The notes beneath the pieces were generated by a model that was given only the letters and a program-made list of their open reading frames with translations, did not search any database and had not been told where the DNA came from. From Inediibacterium massiliense (GTDB lineage Bacteria; Bacillota; Clostridia; Peptostreptococcales; Thermotaleaceae), in contig NZ_LN876587.1 in NCBI RefSeq assembly GCF_001282725.1, positions 1,421,695 to 1,485,694 on the forward strand: a stretch of DNA of 64,000 nt, written 5' to 3'. Position 1 is the first letter of the stretch, and each line of letters starts with the position of its first letter. Below, in pieces: positions 46,932-57,392 of this stretch. A program made the translations under genes and the position numbers.

Positions 46932-47127
46932 TTATATATATACTCACCTCATTTTTTCTTTATCTTTCTCAATATTCGACATAAGTATCTTTAATCCTCC
47001 TTTATTTAAAAGGAAAATAAAATACATAATTGTCTGTCATTTCTCTAAATTTCACAAATTACTTCTATTTTTCTACTTTTGTATTAATATATATACCACA
47101 ATATATTCATTATTCCTCCTATAATAA

Positions 47128-47164
47128 AAAAAAGACATGGAAAAATTTTTCCATGTCTTTTTTT
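47128..47164 (-). terminator. Terminator of the ccpN-ppsR-ppdK operon
   Basis: AAAGACATGGAAAAA and TTTTTCCATGTCTTT are a near-perfect 15-base inverted repeat, followed on the minus strand by TTTTTTTATTATAGG, directly at the ppdK stop. Confidence 0.85.
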
Positions 47165-49786
47165 TTATTTATTTTGTACTGCTGCACGTGCTGCTGCAAG
47201 TCTTGCAATAGGTACTCTATATGGAGAGCATGATACATAATGAAGTCCTATTTTGTGACAAAATTCAATAGAATCTGGATCTCCTCCATGTTCCCCACAA
47301 ATGCCAAGTTTAATATCTTCTCTTTGAGATTTTCCTAGTTCTACAGCCATTTTCATAAGTTTTCCAACCCCTACCTGATCTAATCTTTGGAAAGGATCTT
47401 TTTCAAATATTTCTTTTTTTCTATATTCTGGAATGAATTTTCCTGCATCATCTCTTGAAAATCCATAAGTCATTTGAGTCAAATCATTTGTTCCAAAAGA
47501 GAAAAACTCTGCATGTTTTGCAATTTCATCAGCAGTTAAAGCAGCTCTTGGTACTTCAATCATAGTACCTACTTTAATTTTTAATGTCTCGCCCATTTCA
47601 TCCATTACTTCTTTTGCAGTCTTTATAATTAAATCTTTGATAATTTCTAATTCCTTTTCACTTCCAATAAGCGGAACCATAATCTCAGGTTCAATATTGA
47701 TATTTTTTTCTTTCTTTACTTCTATAGCTGCCATTATGATAGCTTTTGTTTGCATTTCACATATTTCTGGATACGTAATAGATAATCTGCATCCTCTATG
47801 ACCAAGCATTGGATTCACTTCTTTTAATTCCTCTACTGTTTCTTTTAATTCTTCATAAGAAACTCCTATTTGTTTTGAAAGTGCTTTTATGTCTTCATCA
47901 TGATGTGGTAAAAATTCATGTAGTGGTGGATCTAGTAATCTAATTGTTACTGATCTTTCTCCCATTTCCTTGAAAATTCCTACAAAATCATTTTTTTGGA
48001 AAGGCAGTAATTTATCTAGTGCAGCTACTCTTTCTTCTACAGTTTTAGAAAGAATCATTTTTCTCACAGCAGGAATTCTTTCTTCCTCAAAGAACATATG
48101 CTCTGTTCTACAAAGTCCAATTCCCTCTGCTCCAAATTTTACAGCTACAGCTGCATCCTTTGGTGTGTCTGCATTTGTTCTTACTTTTAGTTTTCTAATT
48201 TCATCTGCCCAATTCATTAAAGTAGCAAAGTTTCCTGATAATTCTGGATCTTTTGTTTCAATACTTCCTTCATATACATTTCCTGTATTTCCATCAAGAG
48301 AAATAAAATCTCCTTCTTTAAAAATTTTAGTTCCTACTTTAAATAATTTATTTGTTTCATCTACTCTTAACTCTCCACATCCTGCTACACAACATTTCCC
48401 CATTCCTCTTGCTACTACTGCTGCATGAGAAGTCATTCCTCCTCTTGCTGTTAAAATTCCTTGTGCTGCTACCATTCCTTCTATATCTTCAGGAGAAGTT
48501 TCCAGTCTTACTAAAACTACTTTTTCTCCTTCACTAGCTTTAGCTACGACATCTTCTGCATTGAAATAAATTTTTCCTGTAGCAGCTCCAGGAGATGCTG
48601 GCAATCCTTTTGTAATTTTTGTAGCTTCTTTTATGGCTTTCTCTTCAAAAGTAGGATGAAGAAGTTGGTCTAATTGATTTGGTTCGATTCTTAATATAGC
48701 CGTCTCTTTATCAATGATTTTTTCATTTACCATATCTACTGCTACATTAATTGCTGCTGCTGCTGTTCTTTTTCCATTTCTTGTTTGAAGTAAGAATAAT
48801 TTGCCTTTTTCTATTGTAAATTCAATATCTTGCATATCTTTATAGTGATTTTCTAATAAATTGGCAACATTTACAAATTGATCATATACAGGAGGCATTG
48901 TATTTTGAAGCTGTGCAATAGGTTGAGGTGTTCTAATTCCTGCTACCACATCCTCTCCTTGTGCATTCATTAAAAATTCTCCAAATAATTTTTTCTCTCC
49001 TGTAGCAGGATTTCGAGTGAATGCAACTCCTGTTCCTGAAGTATCTCCCATATTTCCAAATACCATGGATTGTACATTTACAGCTGTTCCAAAGTGGCTT
49101 GGAATCTCATTTAATTCTCTATATACAATAGCTCTAGGATTATTCCAAGAACTAAATACAGCTTGAACTGCCATTAATAATTGTTCTTTTGGATCTTGTG
49201 GAAAATCTTTTCTAGATTCTTTTTTCACAAGCTTTTTATATTCTTCAATAATATTTTTAAGATTTTCTGATGTTAACTCTGTATCTAGCTCTACATGACT
49301 AATTTCCTTTTCTTTTTCTAATATATGATCAAATTTATATTTTGGGATTTCAAGTACTACATCTCCAAACATTTGAATAAATCTTCTGTAGCTATCATAA
49401 GCAAATCTTTCATTTTCTGTTGCTTTTGCCATTCCTACTACCGTTTGGTCATTAAGACCTAAGTTTAATATGGTATCCATCATACCAGGCATAGAAACAA
49501 CAGCTCCAGATCTTACAGATACTAAAAGAGGATTGGTTGCATCTCCAAATTTCTTTCCTATTTTTTCTTCTAAATTTTTTAGATTTTCAAAAATTTCTCC
49601 CACAATACTTTCATGAATTTGTTTTCCATCTTCATAATATTGATTACAAGCTTGTGTAGTCACTGTAAACCCTGGAGGGACAGGAAGTCCTATCTTCGTC
49701 ATTTCTGCTAAATTTGCACCTTTTCCCCCTAGTAAAGATTTCATTTCCTTATTTCCTTCATAAAATGCATATACATATTTTGTCAT
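47165..49786 (-). CDS. ppdK: Pyruvate, phosphate dikinase
   Basis: An 873-residue enzyme that interconverts pyruvate + ATP + Pi and PEP + AMP + PPi. The N-terminal nucleotide domain (GGKGANLAEMTKIGLPVPPG), the swivelling domain with catalytic histidine H454 (GGMTSHAAVVARGMG), and the C-terminal TIM barrel (GLCRTEHMFF; KLGICGEHGG with the catalytic cysteine) are all present. T452, two residues before H454, is the site where its regulator (encoded next) would act. In anaerobes it can run toward pyruvate and ATP in glycolysis. Confidence 0.97.
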   Translation of the reverse strand: MTKYVYAFYEGNKEMKSLLGGKGANLAEMTKIGLPVPPGFTVTTQACNQYYEDGKQIHESIVGEIFENLKNLEEKIGKKFGDATNPLLVSVRSGAVVSMPGMMDTILNLGLNDQTVVGMAKATENERFAYDSYRRFIQMFGDVVLEIPKYKFDHILEKEKEISHVELDTELTSENLKNIIEEYKKLVKKESRKDFPQDPKEQLLMAVQAVFSSWNNPRAIVYRELNEIPSHFGTAVNVQSMVFGNMGDTSGTGVAFTRNPATGEKKLFGEFLMNAQGEDVVAGIRTPQPIAQLQNTMPPVYDQFVNVANLLENHYKDMQDIEFTIEKGKLFLLQTRNGKRTAAAAINVAVDMVNEKIIDKETAILRIEPNQLDQLLHPTFEEKAIKEATKITKGLPASPGAATGKIYFNAEDVVAKASEGEKVVLVRLETSPEDIEGMVAAQGILTARGGMTSHAAVVARGMGKCCVAGCGELRVDETNKLFKVGTKIFKEGDFISLDGNTGNVYEGSIETKDPELSGNFATLMNWADEIRKLKVRTNADTPKDAAVAVKFGAEGIGLCRTEHMFFEEERIPAVRKMILSKTVEERVAALDKLLPFQKNDFVGIFKEMGERSVTIRLLDPPLHEFLPHHDEDIKALSKQIGVSYEELKETVEELKEVNPMLGHRGCRLSITYPEICEMQTKAIIMAAIEVKKEKNINIEPEIMVPLIGSEKELEIIKDLIIKTAKEVMDEMGETLKIKVGTMIEVPRAALTADEIAKHAEFFSFGTNDLTQMTYGFSRDDAGKFIPEYRKKEIFEKDPFQRLDQVGVGKLMKMAVELGKSQREDIKLGICGEHGGDPDSIEFCHKIGLHYVSCSPYRVPIARLAAARAAVQNK

Positions 49787-49803: not shown

Positions 49804-50616
49804 TTATTTCCAATTTTCTTTTAATATTTCTAAAATAATATTTGCACTTTCTTCAATAGCTTTAGAAGATACATCAATGATAGGACATCCTACTCTTTTC
49901 ATAATACCTTCCGCATAATCCAGTTCCATTAAAATTCTTTCCATACTTGCATAATTCGCTTCATTTTTAAGACCTAATGCTTTGAGTCTTTCCTGTCTTA
50001 TTTCATTTAATTTAATAGGATTTGTAGTAAGGCCTATAATCTTTTTAGCAGGAACATTAAATAATTCTTCTGGTACAGGTACCTCTGGAACTAATGGAAC
50101 ATTGGCTACTTTTATATTTTTATGAGCTAAATACATACTAAGGGGGGTCTTAGATGTTCTTGAAATTCCTATTAAAACTGCATCTGCTTTTTTAAGTCCC
50201 CTCGGATCTTTTCCATCATCATATTTTACCGCGAATTCTATAGCTTCTATTTTTTTGAAATACTTTTCATCTAATTTTCTAATAAGTCCTGGTTCATTTT
50301 TAGGAGATTCTCCTAAAGTTTTCTCTAAAGCTTCTGTAATAGGAGTCATAATATCAATAGCAATAATATTTTTTTCCTTTGCTTTTTCCTCTAAAACTCT
50401 TCTTAAAGAAGGAATCACCATTGTAAAAACAATAAAAGAATTTTCATGACTTGCTTCATTTATAATTTCAACAATCTGATCTTCATCTGATATATATGGA
50501 AATCTCCTAAATTCACAATTTTTGCATAAGAATTGACTTGTTGCTGCTTTTACAACTTGTTCTCCTGTTTCTCCTATAGAGTCAGAAATAATATATACCA
50601 CTAGCCTGCGATCCAT
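49804..50616 (-). CDS. ppsR: PPDK/PEP synthase regulatory kinase/pyrophosphorylase (DUF299)
   Basis: A 270-residue bifunctional regulator that phosphorylates the TSH threonine with ADP to stop PPDK, and dephosphorylates it with phosphate. Family motifs: VVYIISDSIGETGEQVVKAA at the start, the P-loop-like GISRTSKTPLSMYLA, and GLTTNPIKLNEIRQERL. It lies 17 bases before its target ppdK and after ccpN. ATG at 50616 with GGAGG 8 nt upstream. Confidence 0.95.
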   Translation of the reverse strand: MDRRLVVYIISDSIGETGEQVVKAATSQFLCKNCEFRRFPYISDEDQIVEIINEASHENSFIVFTMVIPSLRRVLEEKAKEKNIIAIDIMTPITEALEKTLGESPKNEPGLIRKLDEKYFKKIEAIEFAVKYDDGKDPRGLKKADAVLIGISRTSKTPLSMYLAHKNIKVANVPLVPEVPVPEELFNVPAKKIIGLTTNPIKLNEIRQERLKALGLKNEANYASMERILMELDYAEGIMKRVGCPIIDVSSKAIEESANIILEILKENWK

Positions 50617-50632: not shown

Positions 50633-51274
50633 TTATTGCTGCCTTCCAAGTTCTACAAATAATTTAGTTATATTGGTTTTAGATACTTTTCCTACCACTT
50701 TAAAAAATTCCTTGCCATCTTCTATAACTTTCTCCACTACTGGAAGACTATCTACTTGATGATCTATAATTTTAATGGCAGCTTCTAGAGCAGTTTCATC
50801 TGGATACGTCATGACAATATTAGGCATTCTAGTCATAATCAAACCTACAGGTACTTTGTTTACATCCGTTCCACCCATAATTGTTCTTAAAAAATCCTTT
50901 CTGGATACAATACCTACAAGATAGTTATTAGATGTCACAAAAATACTGCCTACATCTTCTAAAAACAAAGTAACAATTGCATCATATAGATTTGTTTGCT
51001 CTCCCACTACAATAGGCATAGATTTAATTTCTTTTACTTTAATACGGTGAATTTCTTCTGAAATCAAATTAATAGGTATATTTCCCGAATACAAATAACC
51101 CACTTTAGGTCTTGCATCTAACATTCCCGTCATAGTCAAAATAGCTAAATCCGGTCTTAATGTAGCTCTTGTAACCTTTAACAAATTGGCAATCTGTTCG
51201 CTCGTAATAGGCTCCTTTTCTTTTACGATATCAATAATCTTTTTTTGTCGCTCTGTAAACTCTATGGTGATCAC
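50633..51274 (-). CDS. ccpN: CcpN-like HTH-CBS transcription repressor
   Basis: A 213-residue protein: winged helix (about 1-65; ITSEQIANLLKVTRATLRPDLAIL) and two CBS domains (about 80-210; GSIFVTSNNYLVGIVSRKDFLR, DSLPVVEKV). Bacillus CcpN represses gluconeogenic gapB and pckA and its CBS pair senses ADP/ATP. The gene is first in ccpN-ppsR-ppdK. The start is GTG (51274) with GGAG 8 nt upstream. Two CcpN-operator-like sites lie ahead, so it may repress itself and ppdK. Confidence 0.92.
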   Translation of the reverse strand: MITIEFTERQKKIIDIVKEKEPITSEQIANLLKVTRATLRPDLAILTMTGMLDARPKVGYLYSGNIPINLISEEIHRIKVKEIKSMPIVVGEQTNLYDAIVTLFLEDVGSIFVTSNNYLVGIVSRKDFLRTIMGGTDVNKVPVGLIMTRMPNIVMTYPDETALEAAIKIIDHQVDSLPVVEKVIEDGKEFFKVVGKVSKTNITKLFVELGRQQ

Positions 51275-51297
51275 CTCTTTATCTCCGTTTTATGTAA

Positions 51298-51330
51298 TAT
51301 GTTATACTATTTATGTTTATATGTTATATT
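51298..51330 (-). promoter_or_regulatory. Two CcpN operator-like sites over the ccpN-ppsR-ppdK promoter
   Basis: On the plus strand TATGTTATACT (51298-51308) and TATGTTATATT (51320-51330) both fit the recalled CcpN consensus TRTGHYATAYW at every position. The sites are 22 bases apart (two helix turns) and lie 24 and 46 bases before the GTG. Candidate -10 elements (TATAAT at 51328-51333 or TAACAT at 51321-51326) overlap the second site. Confidence 0.65.
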
Positions 51331-51404
51331 ATATATAGATTGTAACAAATATTTGTGATTATTTCTATATTTTTTTGCATTTTTTTTAAAATTATTTTTG
51401 TAAA

Positions 51405-52870: not shown

Positions 52871-53060
52871 ATATAAAAAACCCTTCATCCCTATCAAGGG
52901 ACGAAAGGTTTTACTTCCGCGGTTCCACCCTAGTTGATACTAATGTATCCACTTTCAACTATTCACTCTAGAGTGCCTTTCACCAAAATACAATATCGGA
53001 TTCTCAGCATCCCCGACTCTCTGTGATTTTACTTTTGATTACTTCTCTCTGTCATCATGA
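52871..53060 (-). promoter_or_regulatory. Glycine T-box riboswitch leader of glyS
   Basis: The T-box AGGGTGGAACCGCGG is at 52917-52931 on the minus strand. A terminator stem (52879-52912, AACCTTTCGTCCC with GGGATGAAGGGTT) is followed by T-runs; the antiterminator uses the T-box region. The predicted specifier is GGC at 52975-52977 (in GAAAGGCACT), a glycine codon. AGAGAG at the 5' side is typical of stem I. Uncharged tRNA-Gly would turn on glyS. Confidence 0.92.
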
Positions 53061-53078
53061 TTATTAGATTTGTCTAAG

Positions 53079-56576: not shown

Positions 56577-57392
56577 TTATTTGCATTTTTCTATAAAATC
56601 TCTATATTCCTTATAGTATTGTTCATTACTTTTTTTATAAGTTTCTTCTACTCTATTTTTAAAATTTTCTAAAGTTCCAGTAAAATAATTCGTAATCATT
56701 AAATCTTTATCTTTAAAATATAAAAGAATACCCTCTTTTGGATTTATTTTATCAGAATATCTAATATGATTATAATTGCCTTTTTCTACTAAATATTTTA
56801 CAATCTCTATATGGCCAAAACCTGCACTCCATCTTAAGGCATAATCATTATCAATATATATGTCTGACCCTTTCTCAACCAAATATTTGACAACCTCTAA
56901 ATGTCCATTTTTAGCACTTAATCTAAAAGCAATGTCATCTTTAGCATGAATATTTGCACCTTTTTCTACTAAATACTGAACGACTTCTATATGCCCATTA
57001 ATAGCACTCATTTTTAATGCACAATCATTCTCAGCATGAATGTTGGCACCCTTTTCTACTAAATATTTGACAATCTCTATGTGACCTCTATTCGCACTCC
57101 ATCTTAAGGCATAATCGTTAGCAGCATGAATATGGGCACCTTTTTCTACTAAATATTTCACTAATTCTGTATGTCCTTCACTAGCACTCCATCTTAGAGG
57201 ATAATCTTGATCCGTATGAAGACCTGCGCCTTTTTCTACTAAATACTGAGTCATTTCTAACTGTCCATTTTCTGCACTAAATCTTAATGCATACTCCTTG
57301 TCCACACATATATCAGAATCATTCTCTATAATAGATATTAATCCATCTACATCACCATTTTTTAAAATTTCAACTAATTCTTTTTCTTTCAT
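56577..57392 (-). CDS. Ankyrin-repeat protein with six exact 30-residue repeats
   Basis: A 271-residue cytosolic protein. Residues 31-210 are six ankyrin repeats, each exactly 30 residues with no indels, of the pattern DYALRWSAxxGHxEIVKYLV followed by EKGAxIHAxN. A partial N-terminal cap precedes them. The last 60 residues form a distinct basic helical tail (FKNRVEETYKKSNEQYYKEY). Ankyrin arrays bind other proteins; the partner is unknown. It has no own promoter in sight and sits in the era/dgkA supercluster, where it is not standard, so insertion or duplication is likely. Confidence 0.88.
   Translation of the reverse strand: MKEKELVEILKNGDVDGLISIIENDSDICVDKEYALRFSAENGQLEMTQYLVEKGAGLHTDQDYPLRWSASEGHTELVKYLVEKGAHIHAANDYALRWSANRGHIEIVKYLVEKGANIHAENDCALKMSAINGHIEVVQYLVEKGANIHAKDDIAFRLSAKNGHLEVVKYLVEKGSDIYIDNDYALRWSAGFGHIEIVKYLVEKGNYNHIRYSDKINPKEGILLYFKDKDLMITNYFTGTLENFKNRVEETYKKSNEQYYKEYRDFIEKCK
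56763..57302 (-). repeat. Six tandem 90-bp coding repeats in the ankyrin gene
   Basis: Six in-frame 90-base units encode the 30-residue ankyrin repeats. Strings such as TTTTTCTACTAAATATTT (plus strand) recur in each unit, so the array may change copy number by recombination or slippage. Confidence 0.85.

Follow-up and report, generated by a model that had tools for sequence, protein, structure and literature searches.

The best explanation for the sequence features upstream of ccpN in Inediibacterium massiliense is that the CcpN orthologue represses its own operon, ccpN-ppsR-ppdK, and a second GAPDH gene (gap2), closing two gluconeogenic steps; judged from promoter comparison, this reading is very likely. 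For Clostridia, Clostridioides-like genera among them, it offers a concrete candidate for a transcription switch at the PEP/pyruvate node, where the sign and the trigger of PPDK control are a practical question. As predicted, the local content is one autoregulated operon in which PPDK and its regulator are both encoded, together with the second gap gene.

Genes of the operon

The operon occupies the minus strand of the window, by which is meant the whole 64,000-nucleotide stretch analyzed (Table 1). Its first product matches the CcpN model NF053704 over the full length with 309.1 bits, against a curated equivalog cut-off of 260, and Pfam assigns it an N-terminal HTH_11 domain and CBS in two stretches. 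The CBS half matches structures of YqzB, the Bacillus subtilis CcpN (3fv6, 3fwr, 3fws), and 20 of 26 HTH residues are identical to those of Bacillus-type CcpN proteins. There is one CcpN in the genome, the sole other match being a weak CBS hit. PpsR is recognized by NF003742 (337.6 bits; cut-off 225) and by PF03618; its score for the equivalog NF049928 falls under that model's cut-off. The three genes are separated by short intergenic spacing, and no terminator was reported on the minus strand between ccpN and ppdK. Both the identity of the ccpN homologue and the gene order ccpN-ppsR-ppdK, as given in the first-pass annotation, are borne out, since the family models match and the order is kept in relatives.

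Table 1. Annotated and predicted features of the ccpN-ppsR-ppdK region (positions in the window)
Feature	Position	Strand	Remarks
Hairpin with T-runs, probable operon terminator	47126..47165	reported on +, stem symmetric	directly after ppdK
ppdK, pyruvate, phosphate dikinase	47165..49786	-	TIGR01828, 1460 bits
ppsR, PPDK/PEP synthase regulator (kinase/pyrophosphorylase)	49804..50616	-	NF003742, PF03618; start by own ribosome-binding site
ccpN	50633..51265	-	HTH_11 and two CBS domains; probable AUA start
Shine-Dalgarno GAGGTGATC of ccpN	51269..51277	-	contains the GTG usually called as start
CcpN operator site 2 (predicted)	51298..51308	-	sense AGTATAACATA; exact consensus match; 14.1 bits
CcpN operator site 1 (predicted)	51320..51330	-	sense AATATAACATA; exact consensus match; 11.7 bits
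Probable -10 box TATAAT fused to site 1	51328..51333	-	TATAT flank conserved

A pair of predicted operators upstream of ccpN

Two perfect matches to TRTGHYATAYW, which we take to be the Bacillus CcpN operator consensus, had been noted 22 bp apart before the operon, and both 11-mers are exact. The plus strand reads TATGTTATACT at 51298-51308 and TATGTTATATT at 51320-51330; with ccpN-ppsR-ppdK on the minus strand, site 1 lies on the promoter side and site 2 on the gene side, 22 bp further downstream (start to start). Site 2 is the most strongly conserved site, and the paired site is also kept in relatives. A literature search for the exact consensus TRTGHYATAYW did not find it.

Single exact matches in the window number 8 against 3.8 expected, a mild enrichment. 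Across the whole 3.5-Mb genome, one exact pair in the same orientation with a gap of 0-25 bp occurs; with two hits for the reversed control pattern, the count in its own genome does not by itself make the pair significant. An order-wide search with a tighter pattern, TRTGHYATAYT-N6-13-TRTGHYATAYW, returned 31 matches in 198 genomes versus 10 for the reversed pattern used as control. Fifteen of the 31 stand before ccpN, four before glpX, and one before a gap gene; the 11 outside these three genes are at about the control level, so pairs of this kind are not common at random promoters.

Conservation across the order and the phylum

The comparison of ccpN upstream regions covered 104 distinct loci from the order and 96 from a wider phylum sample, which includes a few lactobacilli and vagococci. 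On the same strand, ppsR follows ccpN at 103 of the 104 order loci and 95 of the 96 phylum loci, and ppdK follows in operon order at 98 and 77 of them, respectively. An EM motif search given no consensus as input returned ATAGTATAnCAYA for the order set and AATAGTATAnCAY for the phylum set, both of them TRTGHYATAYW read as reverse complement, so that the presumed CcpN consensus is recovered de novo. Their log-likelihoods, 334 (order) and 279 (phylum), compare with 54-71 for dinucleotide shuffles (55-67 for those of the order set).

Sites of at least 10 bits are present in 88/104 order promoters and 50/96 phylum promoters versus 1.5% of mononucleotide shuffles, and pairs of at least 16 bits in 59/104 order promoters versus none in shuffles, fractions that are partly so by construction because the position weight matrix (PWM) was trained on the ccpN promoters of the order set. 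Of the 78 pairs that reach 12 bits, 56 have a spacing of 20-22 bp. Site 2 is kept as AGTATAGCACA and site 1 changed to TATAATATACTATATA in Clostridioides-like genera (family f4; label inferred), and a recognizable site was not found in some genomes of the order (for example, at L107, L114, and L122). The sites are thus conserved in relatives throughout the order, and about half of the phylum sample keeps them as single sites.

Matches to so short a word might reflect a chance likeness of AT-rich promoter sequence, in which TATAAT-like words abound. Such a reading, to which the low GC, the part of the -10 box that falls inside site 1, and the occurrence of reversed-control pairs all lend something, is already contradicted by conservation: orientation, spacing, and the C/A positions are kept across 33 non-redundant promoters, the de novo motif stands far above shuffles, and a site is present at gap2 with none at gapA (see "Other predicted targets: gap2 and glpX"). 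Chance is accordingly given almost no weight, and the comparison of position and conservation places the pair clearly beyond it. Control by the CcpN homologue of itself, the PPDK regulator, and PPDK, as first proposed, is supported by the predicted operators conserved across the order together with the operon structure.

Promoter architecture and direction of control

Site 1 overlaps the second half of the probable -10 box. Of the sequence flanking site 1, the TATAT immediately ahead of it is conserved best among 33 non-redundant relatives, giving a TATAAT or TATAGT that runs into the operator, and this agrees with the earlier view that the sites cover the likely promoter. By eye, family f9 and the f4 genera carry TTAACA or TTTACA 17-18 bp ahead of the -10 box, and -35 boxes at proper spacing can be seen in relatives (L036, L094). 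Site 1 would extend roughly from -9 to +2 and site 2 roughly from +13 to +23; both would face the same side of the helix, where a bound protein could block initiation or promoter escape. A few bases upstream lies an alternative extended -10, TGTTACAAT; if it is used, both operator sites are downstream of the transcription start. A third site about 41 bp before site 1 (AGTATAGCAAA in some relatives, by eye) was discarded, as the PWM lent it no support at any upstream offset.

In the mechanism favored here, CcpN molecules would occupy both sites, two helical turns apart, one over the -10 box and start region and the other just downstream, and would block transcription while the cell is in a glycolytic state. 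Nucleotides are generally known as the signal of CcpN; by extension from the Bacillus protein, the likely signal would be adenine nucleotides acting on the CBS domains. The two steps closed together would be pyruvate to PEP (PPDK) and the reverse GAPDH step.

Repression as the sign of control is carried over from Bacillus. The PPDK reaction is reversible, and in some Clostridia it serves glycolysis; CcpN might then bind as an activator or in simple feedback, with PPDK running in the glycolytic direction and no glycolytic repression of ppdK, and from the position of site 2 past the start, taken on its own, the sign cannot be read. This has perhaps a slim chance of being right. The fusion of site 1 to the TATAAT box, with the overlap of the -10 box that this entails, suggests repression at the promoter, and the co-targets, the second gap gene here and glpX in relatives, also point away from an activator. 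A further argument is metabolic: the genome encodes pyruvate kinase, and neither an ATP- nor a GTP-type PEP carboxykinase was found in it, which makes PPDK the natural route from pyruvate to PEP.

Repression by CcpN would thus fall on the enzyme at hand. The B. subtilis protein represses gapB and pckA (PMC7028823, PMC3616900); pckA is absent from the present genome, and with no PEP carboxykinase encoded, ppdK appears to take its place. Its absence is read as target replacement and is no argument against CcpN identity. Predicted operator sites do stand before gluconeogenic genes, as a pair at the ppdK operon and as one strong and one weak site at gap2.

Other predicted targets: gap2 and glpX

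A sequence-only profile built from 40 operator pairs was run over 40 genomes, with 150 candidates scored per genome. In the genome of I. massiliense itself, the best of the 150 candidates scored is the ccpN promoter (E 1.7e-4), followed by C14:314823-314848 (E 0.0065). The latter lies upstream of gap2, the start of which is at about C14:314908. One strong and one weak site make up the gap2 arrangement, the second site being the weak one, and a promoter word is common to both targets (TATAATATAACACA at gap2, TATAATATAACATA at ccpN). The strong site recurs in 12 of the 12 family genomes fetched, at -84 to -89 in 11 and at -76 in 1. The CcpN-type site at gap2 of this genome (L309, L350) lies on the -10 box.

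The other GAPDH gene of the genome sits between a SorC/DeoR-type regulator and pgk, which marks it as the glycolytic gapA, and gap2 is placed apart from other glycolytic genes. For gapA, a site on the sense strand was found in 0 of 13 genes. CcpN would accordingly be expected to repress the second, non-glycolytic GAPDH gene as well. Naming this gene GapB by family model was given up, as both paralogues have the same NCBIfam model as best match.

Profile matches were also seen at gap in two genomes of family f12 (among 150 candidates scored per genome), and, in two family f4 genera, exact pairs stand upstream of glpX (L137, L138, L144, L145), the gene for class II fructose-bisphosphatase. No site of at least 8.5 bits was found within 250 bp of glpX in I. 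massiliense. Unlike the ccpN counts, the gap2 and glpX matches are not by construction. The proposal of one switch over the PEP/pyruvate node is too narrow in scope, the predicted regulon reaching to the second GAPDH gene here and to glpX in relatives.

With kinship ignored and 150 candidates scored per genome, profile matches of E <0.01 occur in at least 25 of 32 genomes with ccpN and in 0 of 8 without it. Together, the de novo motif and this co-occurrence suggest that CcpN binds TRTGHYATAYW-type operators. The exact consensus was nevertheless not found in the literature search, the 11-mer is short, and the operators are predicted from sequence; another regulator with a similar AT-rich site might be the one that uses them. 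We consider this improbable: across the 40 genomes, matches at that threshold are confined to those with ccpN, the motif is found at ccpN itself across the phylum, and it is found at gap, a known type of CcpN target (PMC7028823, PMC7936320).

No clear gluconeogenic gene accompanies the profile matches at L336 and L343, which may be due to chance. In one genome (G151; L130/L157), TATGTTATATT-type sites stand in tandem three times, at 20-bp intervals, near a carboxyltransferase-like ORF, and no CcpN was found there.

Relation to known CcpN regulons

The predicted operon appears to be a well-supported clostridial case of a known type of CcpN regulon. With the B. subtilis regulon of CcpN (YqzB), comprising gapB, pckA, and sr1, it shares an orthologous HTH and CBS repressor, the same 11-bp site, a GAPDH gene as target, and the adjacency of ppsR (yqfL) to ccpN. 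It differs in that its main predicted target is the operon of the regulator itself, including ppsR and ppdK, and in that ppdK stands in for the missing pckA. CcpN would in this way keep its role, closing gluconeogenesis, while the target enzyme varies with the enzyme present.

A Lactobacillales CcpN regulon of ppdK, ccpN, and fbp was predicted in a 2013 reconstruction (PMC3616900), and the idea of CcpN control over ppdK and ccpN is for that reason less new than had been suggested. Both ppdK and ccpN are targets in common with that prediction, its fbp parallels glpX of other families, and the clostridial set adds the second gap gene. Gene order differs, ppdK lying upstream of ccpN-ppsR in the lactobacilli and vagococci examined and downstream here. 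Earlier work on CcpN in Clostridia was not found in a literature search that covered few subscription journals.

The start codon of ccpN

The 51274 boundary first given for the operator region is that of the GTG of a mechanical ORF, which lies within the ribosome-binding site GAGGTGATC; the codon three places further on is ATA (51265-51263), and translation probably starts there, at AUA 51265. Relatives keep AGGTGAT ahead of a near-cognate codon. At the aligned start of 200 ccpN genes, 153 have ATA, ATT, or ATC, 46 have ATG, GTG, or TTG, and 1 has TTA; the codon just before is variable, and 15 of the 200 genes have no canonical start in the whole stretch from the upstream stop to codon 12. A non-canonical start is thus probable for most ccpN genes of the Bacillota genomes sampled, and the usual GTG call is probably wrong.

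An AUA start of Staphylococcus aureus ccpN was shown by ribosome profiling in 2026, with non-canonical starts reaching, in poor medium, about 10% of the reporter level obtained with AUG; the same authors report the ccpN start to be conserved in B. subtilis (PMC13009471). The arrangement is shared, an extended Shine-Dalgarno sequence and then an AUA, AUU, or AUC start; the S. aureus start is experimental (PMC13009471), whereas the clostridial one is drawn from comparison and extends the range to Clostridia. Such a start would keep the repressor scarce, and one mRNA could then give little CcpN and much PpsR and PPDK.

It is conceivable, though we lean somewhat against it, that a doubly limited autocontrol of ccpN-ppsR(-ppdK) is ancestral in Bacillota and that the B. 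subtilis regulon is derived, with pckA replacing ppdK. The two limits in that scenario would be autorepression at the promoter and the near-cognate AUA, AUU, or AUC start on the repressor.

Neighboring genes

The glycyl-tRNA synthetase gene that precedes ccpN is itself preceded by a T-box leader (RF00230, 103.5 bits, 52894-53064). Further along the window, an ankyrin-repeat protein gene (56577-57392) is flanked by a DUF502-like gene and a gene for a hemolysin/CNNM-like membrane protein, within a housekeeping cluster with ybeY, era, and recO (all identities by eye).
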